Made by a program: the position numbers and the translations under genes
The notes under the pieces: generated by a model
Database searches by the model: none
What the model saw: the letters and a program-made list of their open reading frames with translations, nothing else
Told to the model about the DNA's origin: nothing
Shown here: positions 862-24,354 of the stretch, piece after piece
Position numbering within the stretch: position 1 is the stretch's first letter
Layout: each line of letters starts with the position of its first letter
From: Peptococcaceae bacterium UBA3937
Lineage (GTDB): Bacteria; Bacillota; Peptococcia; DRI-13; DTU073
Direction of reading: 5' to 3'
Assembly: GCA_002385735.1 (NCBI GenBank)
Contig: DGEB01000051.1
Location: 1-24,354 of the forward strand
Length of the DNA stretch: 24,354 nt

Positions 862-1107
862 TTAATCACCAGACTCCAATGTCCCTTGCTTGGTGAAAAT
901 CTGAGCTTTTCCCCTGATTTTAATGGCTGATGTGTACTGGGTAAATTGAGCAATCATAACCTCACCCCGATCCAGCTTTTCGGTGTGGTGAAATTTCGTA
1001 TCTTTGCCCCGGGTCAATCCAATGATCGTGACCCCGTTATCCAAGGCCTTAACTACAATATAATCTTCAGCACAAGGTTTTTCAACACCATGATCCGTTT
1101 TTTCCAT
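862..1107 (-). CDS. mtrB: TRAP, trp RNA-binding attenuation protein (MtrB)
   Basis: An 81-residue homologue of TRAP, the ring-forming 11-subunit protein that binds tryptophan and then wraps RNA carrying repeated (G/U)AG triplets, causing attenuation or translational block. It shares long blocks with the Bacillus protein: IIGLTRG, TKFHH, EKLD, GEV, IAQFT and TSAIK. The RNA-contact residues are kept as K44, K63 and R65 (B. subtilis K37, K56, R58), and the tryptophan-pocket residues T32, Q54 and T56 are present. The N-terminus is about 7 residues longer than in Bacillus. The ATG at 1107 follows a GGGGGGAG ribosome site; an upstream in-frame ATG is less well placed. It lies 47 bases below coaD, and no anti-TRAP gene is visible. 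This is a strong family call. Confidence 0.93.
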
Positions 1108-1127
1108 GTGACTCCCCCCATCACAAT

Positions 1128-1145
1128 CCACTACCCAGGTAGTGG
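1128..1145 (-). other. Small hairpin just upstream of the mtrB ribosome site
   Basis: CCACTACC and GGTAGTGG form a near-perfect inverted repeat (7 bp with a 4-base loop) between the coaD stop and the mtrB ribosome site. No T-run follows on the minus strand, so it is not a standard terminator. It could shape mRNA stability or mtrB translation. That is inference from position only. Confidence 0.45.
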
Positions 1146-11710: not shown

Positions 11711-11745
11711 AAAAGTCTCCGCCCGGGAGGCTTTTTTATTTTTCC
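11711..11745. terminator. Shared bidirectional terminator between zinc-ribbon gene and aroB
   Basis: AAAAGTCTCC and GGAGGCTTTT form a 10-bp stem (one G-T) with a 5-base loop. A long T-run follows on the plus strand, and CTTTTCTTG follows on the minus strand. It serves the plus-strand gene well and probably also ends the aro operon immediately past the aroB stop. Confidence 0.85.
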
Positions 11746-12971
11746 GCCAACTCCTCCAGAACCTGCATAAGGATTTCTTCCGCTATCCCTTTTTGCACCG
11801 TCACCTTGCCGATGGCCACCGGTAAAACAAAAGCAACTTCCTTGTTCGCGACTTTTTTATCCAGCTTAATCTGCTCCGGGATTTCCCTGACGGTAGAACC
11901 GGACAGATTCATCGGTAATCCCCACTCTTGCATCAGTTTTTCCACCCGCGCCAGCTTCGCTGCACTAAACAACCCGAGCTTAACGGCCAGCATCCCGGCG
12001 GCCCGCATTCCAATCGCCACGGCCTCCCCATGCCGGTACTGCTGAAAACCGGTGGCCTTTTCCAGAGCATGCCCAATCGTATGCCCCAGGTTCAAGATGT
12101 GCCGCAAGCCTTCATCCCGTTCATCGCGCCGGACGATTTCCGCCTTGATTTGCACACAGCGCTCAATCATCGCCGCCAACACCGGCGGGTTGTCCCGGGC
12201 GATGATCTCCCGGGCGTGGGTCTCCAGAAAAGTAAAAAAGCCGGCATCCCACAACAAGGCGTATTTCAACACTTCCGCCAAACCGGCTTGCCATTCACGC
12301 TCATCCAGGGTGTCCAAAGTGCGCAAATCCGCCCACACCGCCCGGGGTTGGTAGAAGGTCCCCAGCATATTTTTGCCCCGCGGGTGGTTGACCGCCACCT
12401 TGCCTCCCACACTACTGTCCACCTGCGCCAAAAGGGTGGTCGGGATTTGAATGAAGGGCACGCCCCTCCGGTAAAGAGCCGCCACAAAGCCGGCCAGATC
12501 CCCCACTACCCCGCCGCCTAAAGCTAGCAGAGGCACCTGACGGCTGAAATTCCTGGCCAGCATCGAATCAAGAATCTTCTCCGCATTGACCCAGGTTTTT
12601 GAAGCTTCCCCCGCTTCCAAAATATATGTAAAGGGACGATAACCCGCTTCTTCAAGCAGTCCGGTTAACTCTTCTCCGTAAAGGCGATGGACCCGTTCAT
12701 CGGTGACCACAAACACCTCTTCTTCCGGAGAAAAGCGCTGTAACTCCGCCACGCCGGCAGGCCAAATCTCCGTACCCAAAAGAACCTCATAGCTTCTTTC
12801 GGCAAGTCTCACCTTCACCCGACGGCAACTTACCCCGACCGCCGGGTTTGTTTTTCCTTGTTCAAGGGCCTCCTGTCCTCCAACTCCTTTTGCAAGGGCA
12901 GCCGGCTCCAGGGCATCCTCTGCCCTAACCCCTTGTCCTATGGCATTGTGCTCCGTTCTTTCTTTTTTCAT
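11736..12971 (-). CDS. aroB: 3-dehydroquinate synthase
   Basis: A 411-residue AroB, which cyclises DAHP to 3-dehydroquinate with NAD and a divalent metal in the cytosol. The NAD-binding GGGVVGDLAGF, the motif PTTLLAQVDSSVGGKVAVN, and the metal-site region HILNLGHTIGHALE with RHGEAVAIGM are all present. The enzyme is usually about 360 residues. The excess is an N-terminal stretch of about 48 residues, low in complexity and containing an imperfect internal duplication (QGVRAEDALEP and KGVGGQEALEQ). ATG 12971 follows AAGGAG at 11 bases; a later GTG near residue 53 could be the true start. It is the last gene of the aro operon, 28 bases below aroC. Confidence 0.94.
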   Translation of the reverse strand: MKKERTEHNAIGQGVRAEDALEPAALAKGVGGQEALEQGKTNPAVGVSCRRVKVRLAERSYEVLLGTEIWPAGVAELQRFSPEEEVFVVTDERVHRLYGEELTGLLEEAGYRPFTYILEAGEASKTWVNAEKILDSMLARNFSRQVPLLALGGGVVGDLAGFVAALYRRGVPFIQIPTTLLAQVDSSVGGKVAVNHPRGKNMLGTFYQPRAVWADLRTLDTLDEREWQAGLAEVLKYALLWDAGFFTFLETHAREIIARDNPPVLAAMIERCVQIKAEIVRRDERDEGLRHILNLGHTIGHALEKATGFQQYRHGEAVAIGMRAAGMLAVKLGLFSAAKLARVEKLMQEWGLPMNLSGSTVREIPEQIKLDKKVANKEVAFVLPVAIGKVTVQKGIAEEILMQVLEELAEK

Positions 12972-12999
12972 GGGCGCCTGTTCTCCTTGTATTGCTTTC

Positions 13000-14154
13000 T
13001 TAACACTTGCTCAGATAATCAAGATAATGGTGGTAGTTGAGCAAAAGCTCCTCCAGATGGTCTCCGCCAAATTTCCCGACCACCGCTTCGGCTAACACCC
13101 AGGCCGTTACCGCCTCCCCCACAACGGCCGCCGCCGGAACCGCACATACATCCGAGCGTTCCACCACTGCCGCGGAGGCTTCTTTGCTTTCCAGATCCAC
13201 ACTGGCCAGGGGTCGTCGCAAAGTGGGAATCGGCTTCATCACCGCCCGAAGGACCAATAGTTCGCCGTTGGTCATGCCTCCTTCCAGGCCACCGGCATGG
13301 TTGGTCCGGTGGTGGAAGCGTTTTTTATCCACATCATACGATATTTCATCATGAACGGCGGAACCCGGCAAGGCTCCGGCCACAAAACCGGCCCCGATTT
13401 CTACCCCTTTTATGGCCGGAATGCTCATGACCGCCTGCGCCAGCCTGCCGTCCAGGCGACGGTCCCACTGCACATGGGAGCCGAGCCCTACCGGCAATCC
13501 CTCGGCGACAATCCGGATCACCCCGCCTAAGCTATCGCCTTTTTCCCTGCTTTCGTCAATCAGCCGCAGCATCGCTTCCGTGGCGTCGGGGTCCGGACAA
13601 TACAAGGGCGTGGCAAATAACGCCGGGCCCCAAATCCTTTCTTCGGCCACCGCCTGTACCCCGCCGATGGCCATGACCTGCCCCTCTACCCGGATGTTCA
13701 AGGCACCCAAAAGCTCTTCGGCAATAGCTCCAACGGCCACCCGGACCGCCGTTTCCCGGGCGCTGGCCCTTTCCAGGATGTTGCGCATATCCCGCTGCCG
13801 GTACTTCAGCCCCCCGGCCAAATCCGCATGCCCCGGGCGTGGCCTGCTGACCATCCTTTCCGTTAGTATTGCTTCCGGGCCGCTGGCCATTATCTCCTGC
13901 CAGTTTTCCCAGTCCCGGTTGTAGATGGCCATTGCAAGGGGACTGCCTAAGGTCTTTCCTCCCCGCACCCCACTTAAAAACTCCACCCGGTCTTCTTCCA
14001 GGGCCATCCGCTGCCCGCGACCGTATCCCCCCTGCCGCCTTTTTAACAAGGCGTTAATCCGTTCGAAATCCAGTTTTAAACCGGCCGGCAGCCCTTCAAT
14101 AACTGCCAGCAGGGCCCGCCCGTGGGATTCTCCCGCCGTAAGAAAACGCAGCAT
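13000..14154 (-). CDS. aroC: Chorismate synthase
   Basis: A 384-residue AroC, which converts EPSP to chorismate using reduced FMN without net redox change. It starts [12 protein letters not shown], the typical opening, and contains the signature region [20 protein letters not shown] plus [21 protein letters not shown] 14154 follows AAAGGTGGG at 6 bases; a longer in-frame version would lie wholly inside aroE and is rejected. It starts one base beyond the aroE stop, so translation is probably coupled. Its FMNH2 source is not encoded in the operon. Confidence 0.96.
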
Positions 14155-14155
14155 T

Positions 14156-15079
14156 TTAAACCCACCTTTCCAGTTCTTTCCACATCGCTTCCACCGGGGC
14201 ATCCGTCCCTGCCCACCTTTGGAAAGACAGGACGCCCTGCTCCAAAAGCATGGGCAGCCCATTCATGACCCGGCAGCCTCTGGCTTTAGCCTGCCGTAAA
14301 AACAGGGTCTCTTTCGGCCGGTAGATTAAATCCACCACCAGTTGCCCGGGATGCAGCAAGGCCAAGTCCAGCGGGGGACAGGCTTCTTCATGGGGAGCCA
14401 TCCCCAGCGGCGTGGTGTTGACCACGAGCCCGCTTCTTTTAACCAGCTCTTCTAAGTCCGCCCCTGTTTCGCTTCTTCCGGTGGGCTTTTCTTCCGTCGC
14501 GGCCCTTTTTACCGCTTCCCCCTTGGGCCACGACCGGACGTAAACCTTCGCCCCTAGCTTTTCCAACTGCTCCGCTAAGGTCACTGCCTTTTCCAGGTTG
14601 CGATTGACAAGGGTCAGTTCTCCCATCCCCGCCCGGGCCAAAGCCACCGCCACCGCCCGCGCCGCTCCCCCGGCCCCTAAGATGACCGCACTTTTTTCCC
14701 GCAAAAGCTGCGGCTCAGCTTTCCGTCCCGCCGCCAGGAAACCGGCTCCGTCCGTATTGTCGCCCCAGAGTTTTTCCCCTTCTTTCCAATAGAATGTATT
14801 CACCGCCCCGATCAGGCGGGCTTCTTCCGTGATTCCATCCAGGTAAGGAATAATCGCTTCTTTCAAGGGGATGGTCACATTCCCTCCTTGCATTCCCAAA
14901 GCTTTGATTCCCTTCACCGCTTCCTCCAGCCGGTCCTTTTCGACATCCAAAGCCACATAAATGCTGTTCATCTTTAATTCCCGAAAGGCCGCGTTATACA
15001 TGACGGGCGAAAGGGTATGCCCGATGGGATGGCCTAATACCGCAAACACTTTCGTCGTCCCCTTTACTCCCGGCTGCAT
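14156..15079 (-). CDS. aroE: Shikimate dehydrogenase (NADP)
   Basis: A 307-residue AroE, which reduces 3-dehydroshikimate to shikimate. Residues [16 protein letters not shown] bind substrate; NVTIPLKE carries the catalytic lysine; DNTDGAGF, the glycine-rich [12 protein letters not shown] and VNRN form the NADP site. It is some 25-30 residues longer than common forms because of a basic insertion near residues 185-212 ([13 protein letters not shown]). ATG 15079 follows GGTGGTG at 8 bases, three bases below the aroA stop. Confidence 0.95.
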
Positions 15080-15082
15080 CGA

Positions 15083-16429
15083 TTATTCACCACCTTTTAA
15101 TTCCTCGAGCAACTGCCAAAAACCGGGGAAAGATACATTTACCGCCTCGGCTCCTTCCAGCACCGTCTTTCCCTGGGCACCCAACGCCGCCACCGCTAGC
15201 GCCATGGCGATCCGGTGGTCGCCAAAACTCCGGCAGGAAACTCCTTTTAAAGCGTGTCCGCCGGAAATGCGCAGCCCGTCCGGCAGTTCCTCGATGCGTC
15301 CCCCCATCCGGGAAAGCCCTTCGGCAATCGCCGCCAGCCGGTTGCTTTCCTTGACCTTTAATTCCGCCGCATCCCGGATCTCCGTAACTCCCTCCGCAAA
15401 CAGCGCCGCCACCGCGAGTACGGGAATCTCGTCAATCAGGCGGGGAATCATGGCGCCGCCTAAGGAAATCCCTTTCAGACTGCTGCTTTCCACTTCAACG
15501 GTGCCGATTAATTCACCGGCGATTTTCTGCTTTTCCGTAATCCGAAGTTTTGCCCCCATCGCCTGCAGAGCCTCGATAATCCCATCCCGGGTCGGGTTTA
15601 ACCCTACCGACTTTATGGTGAGCTTGCCGTGGGGGGCAATCAAGGCCGCTACAAGCAAAAAAGCCGCTGAAGAAAGGTCCCCCGGAACAAGCACCCGTTG
15701 CGCCTTAAGCGTAGGAAATCCTTTGACTGCCACTTCCTTTTCGGTCCCCTTGCCGCTAGCTTCCAACTCCGCTCCAAAGGCCTTGAGCATTAGCTCGGTA
15801 TGATTACGCGAAGACCCCGGCTCAAGGACGACCGTCCAGCCCGGGGCATACAGACCGGCCAACAAGAGCGCTGATTTGACCTGGGCGCTGGCCAGCGGCA
15901 AACGGTAATAAAGGGCGTGCAGGTTCCCGCCGGTAATGGCTAAAGGAGCATATTTTCCTCCCTGACGACCAATGATCTGGGCGCCCATCTTCCGCAAGGG
16001 AACGGTAATCCGGTCCATCGGCCGTCGGCACAGGGATTCATCCCCGCTCATAAAAGACGTAAAGGATTGTCCGGCCAATATGCCGCTGAGTAGCCGCATG
16101 GTAGTTCCGGAATTACCGGCATCCAATACTTTCTCCGGTTCCTGTAGGCCGGATAAACATTTGCCTTCGATGGTCACCCTGGCGCTACCGTGCTCCTGCC
16201 TTCCTTCTTGCGTGGCCGCTTCTTCCACCCGGACCGGAACGCCCAAATGCCACAGACACTTTAATGTATGCAAACAATCATCCGCCACAAGGAATCCCTC
16301 GATTACGGTTGTCCCTTCGGCTAAAGCACCCAGCATGGCCGCCCGATGGGAAATGGATTTATCCCCCGGAACGCGGACGCTCCCCTTTATTTCAGCAACC
16401 GGCACGATTTCTTTTTTCAACCTGGCCAC
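15083..16429 (-). CDS. aroA: 3-phosphoshikimate 1-carboxyvinyltransferase (EPSP synthase)
   Basis: A 448-residue AroA, which transfers enolpyruvyl from PEP to shikimate-3-phosphate. It has GDKSISHRAAML (residues 22-33), LDAGNSGTTMRL, RPMDRI, the catalytic region PRLIDEIPVLAVAA, and RDAAELKVKESNRL. The start is GTG at 16429 with a modest GGAAAG; a nearby TTG is an alternative. It lies 28 bases below tyrA. Its substrate requires shikimate kinase, whose gene is not in the operon. Confidence 0.95.
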   Translation of the reverse strand: MARLKKEIVPVAEIKGSVRVPGDKSISHRAAMLGALAEGTTVIEGFLVADDCLHTLKCLWHLGVPVRVEEAATQEGRQEHGSARVTIEGKCLSGLQEPEKVLDAGNSGTTMRLLSGILAGQSFTSFMSGDESLCRRPMDRITVPLRKMGAQIIGRQGGKYAPLAITGGNLHALYYRLPLASAQVKSALLLAGLYAPGWTVVLEPGSSRNHTELMLKAFGAELEASGKGTEKEVAVKGFPTLKAQRVLVPGDLSSAAFLLVAALIAPHGKLTIKSVGLNPTRDGIIEALQAMGAKLRITEKQKIAGELIGTVEVESSSLKGISLGGAMIPRLIDEIPVLAVAALFAEGVTEIRDAAELKVKESNRLAAIAEGLSRMGGRIEELPDGLRISGGHALKGVSCRSFGDHRIAMALAVAALGAQGKTVLEGAEAVNVSFPGFWQLLEELKGGE

Positions 16430-16457
16430 CCCGACTTTCCATTATACATTTTTTACA

Positions 16458-17633
16458 TTATGGTAAAAAATACCGCACGGCATAGCCCTTGCCGGTTAAA
16501 ACCCGCACCGCTTCATCACAGGCTTCCTTACTTTCAAAGCCCAGGCGGACGGTGCCTTCAATCCCTTCCCGGACCGGCCGGATTTCGATATCACTGATAT
16601 TGATCCTTTTTTCCTTCAGTACCCCGGTGAGCTCCGCAAGAACCCCCGGCTCATCCGGTACGGTCACCGTCAGTTCAAAGACTTGCGGTAAAATCCCTTT
16701 CAACCCGACGGGCACCTGCTCCCGCCAACGCCTGGAGCGTTCCAGAATCTCCGCCAGCGCCACCTCGTCGTTTCCGGCCAAAGCTGTTTCGTACTCCGCC
16801 AGCACCTGCCGGAATTCACCCAATAAAACAAGGAGCGTTTCTTTATTCTGCAGCAGAATATCGCGCCATAAACCGCTGGGGCTGCCGGCAATCCTGGTCG
16901 TATCACGGAATCCTCCTGCCGCCAGAGCAAAAAACCCGCCTTCCTGCTCCTCCAGTTTTCCTACCGTATTGACCAGCGCGCCGGCCAAAAGGTGGGGCAA
17001 ATGACTGATGGCCGCCACCTTCCGGTCATGTTCGGCCGGAGAGAGCAGTCTAATCCGTGCCCCCAGTTTTTCCAAAAAGCTGCCGACCACCTGCACCGTT
17101 TCCATCGTAGTTTTCTCCGTAGGCGTCAACAGGTAAACAGCGTTTTCCAAAAGCTCCCCATGGGCTTGTCTAATCCCTGTTTTCTCCGAGCCGGCCATGG
17201 GATGGCCGCCCAGAAAGGACACCCCATCGGGCAAATGAGTCTCCATATACTTTACAAGCTTGGCTTTCGTACTGCCCGTATCCGTCACGGTCATCCCTGC
17301 CGAAAGGTAGGGAGACAACTGTTCACAAAGGCGGGGCATGTCCGGTACCGGAACGGCCAGAAAAACCAGCTGCGCATCGCACAGGGCTTCTTCAAGCTGC
17401 CGCAAAGTGCCGGCGGCATCCACAGCGCCCAGCCGCACCGCCTCCTCTGCCGTTTCCGGCCGCTGATCAATTCCCCAAACTAAAAGATCAGGCATTTTCC
17501 TTTTCATCGCCAGACCCAAGGAACCGCCGATCAAGCCCAGCCCAACGATGACGACCTTTTTGATCGCCCCAAGGCTTTGCTCACGAGAAGCGTGGCTTTC
17601 GCTTAAATTTGGCACCTGGTTAAGAACCTGCAT
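16458..17633 (-). CDS. tyrA: Prephenate dehydrogenase with C-terminal ACT domain
   Basis: About 391 residues. Prephenate dehydrogenase makes 4-hydroxyphenylpyruvate for tyrosine synthesis. The NAD site is VVIVGLGLIGGSLG; the catalytic region includes TDTGSTKAKL, GGHPMAGSE and AISHLPHLLA. The last 70 residues (VTVPDEPGVLAELTGVLKE...) form an ACT domain, likely for tyrosine feedback. ATG 17633 is preferred because AGGGG lies 8 bases before it; GTG 17642 is nearly on top of that site. It follows aroF by a few bases. No pheA is present in the window. Confidence 0.94.
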   Translation of the reverse strand: MQVLNQVPNLSESHASREQSLGAIKKVVIVGLGLIGGSLGLAMKRKMPDLLVWGIDQRPETAEEAVRLGAVDAAGTLRQLEEALCDAQLVFLAVPVPDMPRLCEQLSPYLSAGMTVTDTGSTKAKLVKYMETHLPDGVSFLGGHPMAGSEKTGIRQAHGELLENAVYLLTPTEKTTMETVQVVGSFLEKLGARIRLLSPAEHDRKVAAISHLPHLLAGALVNTVGKLEEQEGGFFALAAGGFRDTTRIAGSPSGLWRDILLQNKETLLVLLGEFRQVLAEYETALAGNDEVALAEILERSRRWREQVPVGLKGILPQVFELTVTVPDEPGVLAELTGVLKEKRINISDIEIRPVREGIEGTVRLGFESKEACDEAVRVLTGKGYAVRYFLP

Positions 17634-17644
17634 TTTTTCCACCC

Positions 17645-18661
17645 CTACAGGGTGCGCCCCATTACGGCCGCAATTTTCCCGATTTCTACTATGATATTGC
17701 TCAGCCTTTCCGGCTTGATGCTCTGAGGCCCGTCACAAATGGCTTCACCGGGCCGGGTATGCACTTCGATGATTAAACCGTCGACCCCGGCCGCTACGGC
17801 CGCCCGGGCCATCGGCTCCACTAAGGGCCATTTCCCGGTGCCATGGCTGGGATCCACAATCACCGGCAAATGGGTCAACTGTTTGAGAATCGGCACGGCG
17901 GAAAGGTCCAGCACATTCCGGGAATAGGTATCATCAAAGGAACGAATTCCCCGTTCGCACAGAATGACCTGGTGGTTCCCGCTTAACATAATATATTCCG
18001 CGGCCATCAGCCATTCATCAATGGTGGCGGCCATACCCCGTTTTAGCAGCACTGGTTTTTTCGCTTTCGCCACTTCCTTCAGGAGCGGAAAATTCTGCAT
18101 GTTTCTCGCCCCTATTTGCAAAATATCCGCGTACTGGGCTACCAACTCCACCTTTCGGGTGTCCATTACTTCCGTGACAATGGATAAACCGGTTTTTTCC
18201 CGGGCTTCCGCCAAATATTCCAGGCCCTTTTCCTCCATCCCCTGGAAGGCATAGGGCGAGGTCCGGGGCTTATAGGCGCCGCCCCGCAGGATTTTGGCGC
18301 CACTTTCCTTCACCATGAAAGCAATTTCCAGGAGTTGTTCCCGGCTTTCCACCGCACAGGGGCCCGCCATTACCTGCAGTTGGGGCCCGCCAATCGTCAA
18401 CTCCCCGACCCTGATGACGGTGTCCTCCCGGTGAAACTCCCGCCCGGCCAATTTATAGGGGGCCAAAATGGGGATGACCTTTTCCACCCCATCCAAGGCC
18501 TCGATGGCCATATTCACATTATCGGATTTTTCCCCGACCGCGCCGATTAGAATTTTCTCTACCCCACGGGATTCGTGAATCTGATAGCCGTTTTTTTTCA
18601 GCTTCTCTACTACTTTTTGGACCGCCTGTTCTCCGGCGTCCGGACGCATGACAATAATCAT
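17645..18661 (-). CDS. aroF: 3-deoxy-7-phosphoheptulonate synthase, type I-beta with regulatory N-terminus
   Basis: A 338-residue DAHP synthase, the entry enzyme of the shikimate pathway (PEP plus erythrose 4-phosphate). Residues 1-90 form a ferredoxin-like regulatory domain seen in type I-beta enzymes, where aromatic amino acids give feedback control. The barrel follows with MAGPCAVESREQ, ILRGGAYKPRTSPYAFQG, IGARNMQNF and VDPSHGTGKW. ATG 18661 follows GGAG at 9 bases. It is the first gene of the operon, below a 338-base leader that contains an intrinsic terminator, so control is likely by both feedback and transcript attenuation. Confidence 0.95.
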   Translation of the reverse strand: MIIVMRPDAGEQAVQKVVEKLKKNGYQIHESRGVEKILIGAVGEKSDNVNMAIEALDGVEKVIPILAPYKLAGREFHREDTVIRVGELTIGGPQLQVMAGPCAVESREQLLEIAFMVKESGAKILRGGAYKPRTSPYAFQGMEEKGLEYLAEAREKTGLSIVTEVMDTRKVELVAQYADILQIGARNMQNFPLLKEVAKAKKPVLLKRGMAATIDEWLMAAEYIMLSGNHQVILCERGIRSFDDTYSRNVLDLSAVPILKQLTHLPVIVDPSHGTGKWPLVEPMARAAVAAGVDGLIIEVHTRPGEAICDGPQSIKPERLSNIIVEIGKIAAVMGRTL

Positions 18662-18720: not shown

Positions 18721-18750
18721 TGAAAAAGGCACCAGAAGATCAGGTGCCTT
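18721..18750 (-). terminator. Intrinsic terminator inside the aroF leader
   Basis: On the minus strand AAGGCACC and GGTGCCTT form a perfect 8-bp stem with a 9-base loop (TGATCTTCT), ending in five T. It lies about 60 bases before the aroF ATG and after the operon promoter, so it must be bypassed for expression. Its loop can pair instead with AGAAGAT at 18760-18766. Confidence 0.88.
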
Positions 18751-18768
18751 CAATACTGCATCTTCTTC

Positions 18769-18784
18769 CTACCATCCTACCGTG
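18769..18784 (-). repeat. Second short octamer array (two units) next to the antiterminator segment
   Basis: Plus-strand CTACCATC CTACCGTG repeats the octamer seen at 18900-18950. In RNA it gives GGUAGGAUGGUAG directly 5' of AGAAGAU, the segment that can pair with the terminator loop. A protein bound here could control terminator folding. Confidence 0.6.
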
Positions 18785-18899
18785 ATCTTACTTCCCATTC
18801 CAAGTTTTCCCGGCAACCAAGGGGACTCTCCAGCCCCGCCTGCCCACTCTTTTGCAGTTTTAACGGTTCAACTGTTTTCTGTTGCCACCTTCTGCCCTG

Positions 18900-18950
18900 C
18901 TACCATCGTACCGTTCTACCATCCTACTATTCTACTATTATTCTACTATT
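18900..18950 (-). repeat. Tandem octamer array carrying UAG triplets in the aroF leader RNA
   Basis: Six degenerate units of plus-strand consensus CTACYATY: CTACCATC, GTACCGTT, CTACCATC, CTACTATT, CTACTATT, then ATT and CTACTATT. On the transcribed strand this is a series of (G)AUGGUAG / AAUAGUAG units, with UAG in all but one. Phase is 8 bases, broken once by three extra bases. Confidence 0.8.
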
Positions 18951-19005
18951 CACGATTCTTGCCTATTATTATATGCTTCTCCACTGCTCCTGCCACTTTT
19001 TATTC

Positions 19006-19034
19006 ATTATATGCAGTCCGTTCTGAAAAAGCAA
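19006..19034 (-). promoter_or_regulatory. Promoter of the aroF-tyrA-aroA-aroE-aroC-aroB operon
   Basis: On the minus strand TTGCTT (19029-19034), exactly 17 bases, perfect TATAAT (19006-19011). The transcript would start near 18999. No other strong promoter is seen down to aroB. Confidence 0.78.
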
Positions 19035-24175: not shown

Positions 24176-24354
24176 TTGATGACCGTCCTTGCTTTTTTGC
24201 GCTATCTTGGCCGCTTATCCTTTCTTCTGCTTTTCTGCTTGTTTCTCCCTCTTCCCCATGTGACAAAGGCAGCCGCCGCAACAAGCGCTACACAGAGTGC
24301 TGCACAAAATGCTGCACAGAATGCTGCCGAGAATGCTGCACAAAATGCTGCACA
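24176..24354 (+). CDS. Exported Ala-Ala-Gln-Asn repeat protein, truncated by window edge
   Basis: About 59 codons run off the right edge. AGGAGG at 24161-24166 precedes TTG 24176 by 9 bases and ATG 24179 by 12; either may start. A short basic N-terminus and a long hydrophobic stretch (about residues 12-26) form a signal peptide, with likely cleavage after VTKA. The mature part begins AAATSAT and then repeats A-A-Q-N (A-T-Q-S, A-A-Q-N, A-A-Q-N, A-A-E-N, A-A-Q-N). No lipobox cysteine lies at the right place. The downstream domain is outside the window, so function is unknown; a surface or sporulation-coat linker is a guess. Confidence 0.75.
   Translation, partial: MMTVLAFLRYLGRLSFLLLFCLFLPLPHVTKAAAATSATQSAAQNAAQNAAENAAQNAA
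24287..24354 (+). repeat. 12-bp tandem coding repeat
   Basis: Units of consensus GCTGCACARAAT: five full copies and one partial to the window edge, the first (GCTACACAGAGT) most diverged. Each encodes A-A-Q-N or a variant. It is in frame with the exported protein, so copy-number change would not shift the frame. Confidence 0.9.

Follow-up and report, generated by a model that had tools for sequence, protein, structure and literature searches.

The window analysed here is a stretch of 24,354 nucleotides (nt) from Peptococcaceae bacterium UBA3937 (GCA_002385735.1, contig DGEB01000051.1), and its subject is an array of UAG-bearing octamers in the RNA leader of aroF, the gene for the first enzyme of a presumed aromatic operon. 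An earlier note, made from the letters of the window, had reported this array; it is borne out at 18900-18951 on the minus strand, with a phase of 8 nt that is conserved. It forms one half of a leader with two clusters, in which a promoter, the 5' cluster, a linker, the 3' cluster, and a terminator follow one another; the second UAG cluster, a short way ahead of the terminator-like hairpin, had been overlooked. Many anaerobic relatives carry a like site in front of their aromatic genes. The element is real and conserved, and is probably an attenuator of the HutP type; the assignment to TRAP is not supported. The features of the leader are listed below.

18968..18996, minus strand: putative promoter, with -35 GTGGCA (18996-18991), a 17-nt spacer, and -10 TATAAT (18973-18968).
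18900..18951, minus strand: 5' UAG cluster, expanded in this genome; tandem octamers with 8 UAG in two interleaved 8-nt registers.
18769..18781, minus strand: 3' UAG cluster GGUAGGAUGGUAG, with UAGs at 18779 and 18771, 8 nt apart; part modelled by R1 (see below).
18760..18766, minus strand: AGAAGAU, the putative 5' strand of the antiterminator, which pairs with AUCUUCU (18740-18734); fold of -9.1 kcal/mol for a transcript truncated ahead of the 3' arm of the terminator.
18723..18750, minus strand: intrinsic-terminator-like hairpin AAGGCACCUGA/UCUGGUGCCUU with U tract; an inverted repeat, which folds.
17645..18661, minus strand: aroF, 3-deoxy-D-arabino-heptulosonate 7-phosphate (DAHP) synthase, with which the presumed regulated operon opens (NF006421, 508 bits; TIGR01361, 401 bits).

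The putative promoter agrees with the consensus at 10 of 12 positions, and 2 promoter-like sites occur in the region where 0.6 were expected from shuffles; TTGCA...TATAAT, read by eye, stands at the equivalent place ahead of the 5' cluster in many relatives. First bases of the UAGs in the 5' cluster lie at 18948, 18945, 18937, 18934, 18929, 18926, 18918, and 18902 (spacers 0, 5, 0, 2, 0, 5, and 13), and one octamer has decayed to UAC at 18910. With the RNA 5' end at 18961, after the best -10, the first 110 nt hold 8 UAG and no GAG; the 9 UAG and 2 GAG counted earlier are recovered for 5' ends at 18989-19009, which would place the best -10 (18973-18968) within the RNA. Compared with 5000 dinucleotide shuffles of the 110-nt stretch from 18961, UAG is in excess (8 vs. 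3.4 expected, p 0.001) and pairs of UAG 8 nt apart number 4 vs. 0.08 expected (0/5000 shuffles); the (U/G)AG total is not unusual (8 vs. 6.4, p 0.23). The chance expectation of about three given in the earlier note thus holds for UAG and not for (U/G)AG. The 5' and 3' clusters are about 118 nt apart, and the relatives that were read have shorter 5' clusters. A consensus terminator scan called no terminator at 18723..18750.

Conservation was assessed in the 30 best whole-genome aroF loci, unselected for arrays. A UAG pair 8 nt apart occurs within the last 320 nt of 25 of these 30 leaders (3.9 expected). Among UAG-UAG distances, 8 nt was seen 54 times (4.2 expected), 16 nt 25 times (3.3 expected), and 3 nt, with a smaller excess, 12 times (3.6 expected); the TRAP distance of 5 nt showed no excess (3 vs. 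4.2) and 7 nt was absent (0 vs. 3.9). The peak at 8 nt persists when the window is left out (49 vs. 3.7), and a set of 33 leaders, picked after arrays had been seen, has the same peak as the unselected 30. The octamer unit is UAGNAYGG. Read by eye, the leaders share the plan of promoter, 5' cluster, linker, 3' cluster, and terminator. Among leaders missing the UAG pair, one (L016) carries a CAG form and three (L035, L036, L038) are T-box-like. In a second set of 80 aroF loci, UAG-N5-UAG pairs within 700 nt upstream were found in 16, several of them from genomes already represented among the 30; the 57 weakest of the 80 (L063-L119) gave 2 only. An alignment that bears on the test called for in the earlier note was made with 21 elements, selected because they carry the element: the UAG positions are nearly invariant, the stretch ahead of the hairpin drifts, and a hairpin with U tract stands at the equivalent place in all 21.

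R1, a model of the 3' cluster and terminator, was built from these 21 sequences, the window included. It matches the window at 18721-18793 (E 2.1e-16, the window sequence being part of the model) and, at E<=0.01, 250 of 398 genomes of the phylum that were scanned, where the weaker matches (E 1e-4 to 1e-2) may often be due to chance. Strong R1 denotes E<=1e-5 (131 genomes; G334, at exactly 1.0e-5 and with both HutP and TRAP, was left out). Target genes were counted for 110 well-scoring R1 loci among the matches listed, in which rare targets are undercounted; classes are named from single members. The first gene is aroF in 59, a TrpX-like substrate-binding protein in 24 (two members scanned fall under the NF041285 cut-off, 335 and 324 vs. 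390), a sodium symporter in 7, Peripla_BP_6 in 6, hutP in 6, hisC-like in 2, tryptophanase/TPL-like in 2, aroE in 1, and another gene in 3; locus L263 was counted under SSF, not under its first-assigned PaaK-like open reading frame (ORF). HutP-type target RNAs have two clusters of NAG triplets some 20 nt apart. Two clusters are present in 65 of these 110 elements, vs. about 10 expected, with linkers of variable length: the gap is 16-30 nt in 29 of the 65, a range outside which the gap of the window lies. Three hutP leaders (L215, L226, L257) show one cluster.

With up to one mismatch, the octamer pattern gave 7 matches in the genome of the window, 3 of them in the window array, vs. 2 for a reversed-pattern control; exact matches outside the array lie in a symporter leader and an AMP-ligase leader, and a further two matches lie elsewhere. 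At both places the octamer cluster abuts a start codon, that of a sodium symporter (L185, C14:15468-15540) and that of an acyl-CoA ligase (AMP-ligase; L183, C24:15054-15111), and no terminator was seen; this location suggests that control there would be translational.

HutP was then considered as the reader of the element. The gene for it lies on another contig of the same genome.

C25:11065-11445: hutP, overlapping a type I chorismate mutase gene.

The protein belongs to the HutP sequence family (PF09021, 160 bits, cut-off 25), which has 5836 homologues at E<=1e-10. When PDB entries were compared with its predicted fold, those of HutP took places 1-9 in the Foldseek order and 1-6 in the order of Z. 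Searches of PDB by phmmer or profile gave no direct match (sigma-factor noise only, E about 0.04), and hhalign was weak (probability 3.5); the protein is of HutP family and fold, the structural kinship being settled through the predicted fold. In 31 fetched hutP loci (this one plus the 30 best-scoring), such a chorismate mutase gene follows hutP in 30, the exception (L159) being at a contig end; further ORFs downstream (32 of 37 scanned) include anthranilate synthase I in 15 cases and DAHP synthase in 5. From the matches listed, 29 close R1-hutP pairs, each on one contig and one strand, were picked by eye for closeness: in 8, R1 precedes the HutP domain by 42-132 nt and so lies in the leader of hutP itself, and in 21 it follows the domain at a distance of 76-2551 nt. 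A strong terminator-like hairpin was also seen by eye just upstream of hutP in the genome of the window (L120 1345-1385).

HutP (PF09021 at E<=0.001) is present in 256 of the 398 genomes, 254 of them above the curated cut-off, and TRAP (PF02081) in 200. Among the 131 strong-R1 genomes, HutP is found in 124 and TRAP in 107. Strong R1 was found in 103/163 genomes with both proteins, 21/93 with HutP only, 4/37 with TRAP only, and 3/105 with neither. Because HutP and TRAP co-occur, it is the TRAP-less cases that tell them apart: 24 of the 131 strong-R1 genomes lack mtrB, the gene for TRAP, and 21 of those 24, spanning 9 families, carry HutP. The odds ratio for R1 at E<=1e-5 is 18.1 for HutP and 8.3 for TRAP; with the R1 cut-off tightened to 1e-9 or 1e-11, HutP and TRAP perform about equally in a 2x2 test.

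The genes after aroF in the window, from the strand and spacing of which a single operon aroF-tyrA-aroA-aroE-aroC-aroB may be inferred, are as follows.

16458-17642, minus strand: tyrA, aromatic gene run after aroF.
15083-16429, minus strand: aroA, same run.
14156-15079, minus strand: aroE, same run.
13000-14262, minus strand: aroC, same run.
11736-12971, minus strand: aroB, last gene of the run (11736..17642 in all).

We consider it likely that the array supplies the 5' half of a single-stranded site (UAGNAYGG)n for a HutP-family protein, probably one sensing an aromatic amino acid, and that the bound state leads to termination with the operon off. The proposal draws on what was computed here, namely conservation, phase, targets, co-occurrence, hutP synteny, the HutP fold, and antiterminator and terminator strands that in many elements are complementary; from these we infer direct binding by HutP, its ligand, and the sign of control. 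Loaded HutP (C25:11065-11445) would grip the UAG triplets in the two clusters alike. The last of these, with the bases behind it, could then no longer pair with the hairpin downstream at its 5' arm; with the antiterminator masked in this way, the terminator would form and the operon from aroF to aroB would be silenced. Scarcity of the amino acid would leave the antiterminator free to form, and the operon would be read. Many elements allow the last UAG with its tail to pair with the 5' arm of their own terminator: over 106 elements this pairing has a mean of -8.75 kcal/mol, vs. -7.56 with the arms of other elements (0/5000 permutations as low) and -5.96 kcal/mol with shuffled arms, and without the 3' arm 75 of 107 elements have 4 nt or more paired. 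As the UAG tail pairs with the terminator 5' arm, a bound protein should favor termination, which would amount to end-product repression of synthesis and uptake. The ligand is likely an aromatic amino acid; phenylalanine or tyrosine seem likeliest, since tryptophan already has its sensor in TRAP and hutP is regularly found beside a chorismate mutase gene.

Beyond this locus, we lean, with less confidence, towards a picture in which many proteins named HutP in anaerobic Bacillota sense aromatic amino acids instead of regulating histidine genes, and read a two-cluster, 8-nt UAG code to attenuate a phylum-wide regulon (DAHP synthase, transporters, an aminotransferase, tryptophanase-like enzymes, and hutP itself). 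Most of this control would take place at a terminator, and some of it perhaps at the ribosome-binding site, and one genome would have HutP and TRAP, each with a UAG spacing code of its own, working side by side. If true, HutP would have a second, far wider role as an aromatic regulator, by which a large family would be re-annotated; aromatic synthesis in many anaerobes would gain a candidate control mechanism; and a UAG-binding HutP fold and TRAP, kept apart in one cell by triplet spacing, would form a clean case.

Several observations weigh against the proposal made for the aroF leader. In the window itself 2 nt separate the last UAG from the antiterminator helix, which is formed with the loop and upper part of the hairpin; the window element is weak in the own-arm pairing test (-3.7, rank 0.81), even if it does show the antiterminator helix in the truncated-transcript fold; and the leader as a whole is not unusually stable (z -1.75). 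The aroF leader of a genome of the same family (L015, genome G005) has neither the array nor a T-box-like leader, R1 being present elsewhere in that genome, and the leader of hutP in the genome of the window has no R1 match. Two of the five structure models are poor (predicted local distance difference test, pLDDT, 49-50). No HutP match was found in 7 of the 131 strong-R1 genomes (completeness 80-98%), among them G001, of the same family, whose R1 score is the best of all (the model includes its leader), and 132 of the 256 HutP genomes are without strong R1. At least 10 of the 131 genomes supplied model sequences (G000, G001, G003, G004, G025, G029, G030, G031, G047, G055); with those 10 removed, HutP is found in 115/121 and TRAP in 98/121. 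As both proteins co-occur, the contrast between them rests on 21+4 genomes, and the Fisher and permutation tests ignore kinship, so that p-values are inflated by relatedness. Two further points concern the hut operon of Bacillus subtilis, where the HutP triplets are spaced UAG-N4-UAG: that spacing is unmatched here, where it is N5 (54 pairs at distance 8, none at distance 7), and the sign of control is probably reversed compared with classical HutP antitermination.

To our knowledge, HutP has been described from one catabolic operon in Bacillus. The protein studied here is about 23% identical to B. subtilis HutP, and in place of H73, H77, and H138, which we take to be involved in metal binding there, it has G, G, and L. 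The phase is 8 nt here and 7 nt in B. subtilis hut; the genes are aromatic here and those of histidine there. A histidase or hut operon, expected beside a hut regulator, was not detected in the genome of the window (93.8% complete, no PF00221 match), and no match to anthranilate synthase I (trpE) was found in it either. HutP might still read the clusters and antiterminate as it does in hut, so that bound would mean ON. This accords with the sign of its action in the hut operon as given in PMC8934654 and PMC7430163 (HutP is also treated in PMC4448311 and PMC12456014). Here, however, the UAG clusters precede the terminator, whereas B. subtilis HutP is said in PMC8934654 to bind repeats in the terminator hairpin; in many elements the clusters overlap the strand that pairs with the terminator 5' arm; and the targets include many genes of biosynthesis or uptake, where one expects repression by the end product. 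We therefore regard antitermination as unlikely, and keep HutP-dependent termination as the preferred reading. A literature search over titles and the starts of abstracts, with subscription papers mostly outside its reach, returned nothing tying HutP to aromatic genes or describing the leader.

The earlier note had proposed that the shikimate operon is controlled through the array by TRAP, its candidate, or by another RNA-binding protein. Another protein is probably correct; TRAP is not supported, in view of spacing, co-occurrence, and separate classical-looking arrays. The gene for TRAP that the note had placed in the window is indeed there.

862..1131, minus strand: mtrB (TRAP), PF02081, 134 bits.

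Close downstream of it, at 211-519 on the minus strand, a TrpR-family protein is encoded (Trp_repressor, PF01371, 109 bits). A TRAP target leader has a run of about 9-11 (G/U)AG triplets with 2-3-nt spacers, and TRAP acts by masking the antiterminator strand, which lets the terminator form; a protein on (G/U)AG repeats would do the same in trp attenuation and here. That MtrB wraps the array and controls the operon by tryptophan is also in keeping with mtrB in the window, with the UAG excess of the leader, and with the R1-TRAP association across genomes, which may stem from a distribution shared with HutP. Yet the conserved distance is 8 nt, vs. 5-6 for TRAP, and 5 nt is not enriched; the triplets form two clusters, vs. 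about 11 triplets in one run; and the element, unlike TRAP targets, occurs with HutP in TRAP-less genomes of 9 families and in few of the TRAP-only ones. In the genome of the window, moreover, TRAP seems to act on separate targets that have the spacing typical of it. A classical-looking array of 10-11 triplets (L268, G000:C6:14950-14982) is followed by a hairpin, seen by eye, and a TrpX-like gene, and another (L271, G000:C16:28957-28984) spans the start of a TrpB-like gene, both with spacers of 2-3 nt. What speaks for these arrays is how long the one on C6 is and which genes lie behind them, not search statistics: a KAG-N2 search of the genome with up to one mismatch gave 7 matches vs. 10 for the reversed pattern, and the control was not beaten. 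Control by TRAP was accordingly rejected as very improbable. The evidence points to the other suggestion of the earlier note, namely that a different protein may lie behind the 8-base phase, and HutP fits co-occurrence, neighborhood, and site architecture.

A protein-free RNA switch, either a riboswitch or a T-box variant, is more doubtful still. Amino-acid-sensing attenuation is usual at aroF, judging from T-box relatives: of six T-box-like loci tested, four have an Rfam T-box match above threshold before aroF (L035, L054, L057, L058; not L036, L038), so that related genomes share transcription attenuation of aroF with the proposal made here. T-box leaders sense tRNA through a conserved structure; none was found in the window leader, which has no match to RF00230 and no Rfam family at gathering score, lax thresholds giving chance-level matches only. 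No family reached gathering score within any R1 element of 20 loci. The clusters are repeats with linkers of variable length, a consensus fold (RNAalifold) holds the terminator stem alone, with a covariation term of -0.04, and the association with hutP is strong; a covarying RNA fold of the clusters was rejected on the RNAalifold result. Chance tandem duplication in a non-coding stretch, with no function, is the least credible explanation, since the same octamer phase recurs ahead of aroF and other aromatic genes in many families, even though slippage creates simple tandem arrays and the 5' cluster of the window is both longer than that of its relatives and in possession of a decayed unit.

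Three minor observations were made. Upstream of aroF at L058, the T-box (Rfam, 130 bits) is accompanied by an apparent UAG-type array, read by eye. The sole Rfam match in the 20 R1 loci is a c-di-GMP-I riboswitch aptamer (46 bits) at L215 2689-2773, outside the R1 element and on the opposite strand near hutP. At 24287-24354 the window ends in a 12-base tandem repeat of 5.7 copies, GCTGCACAGAAT, which runs past the window end and has more than one open frame.
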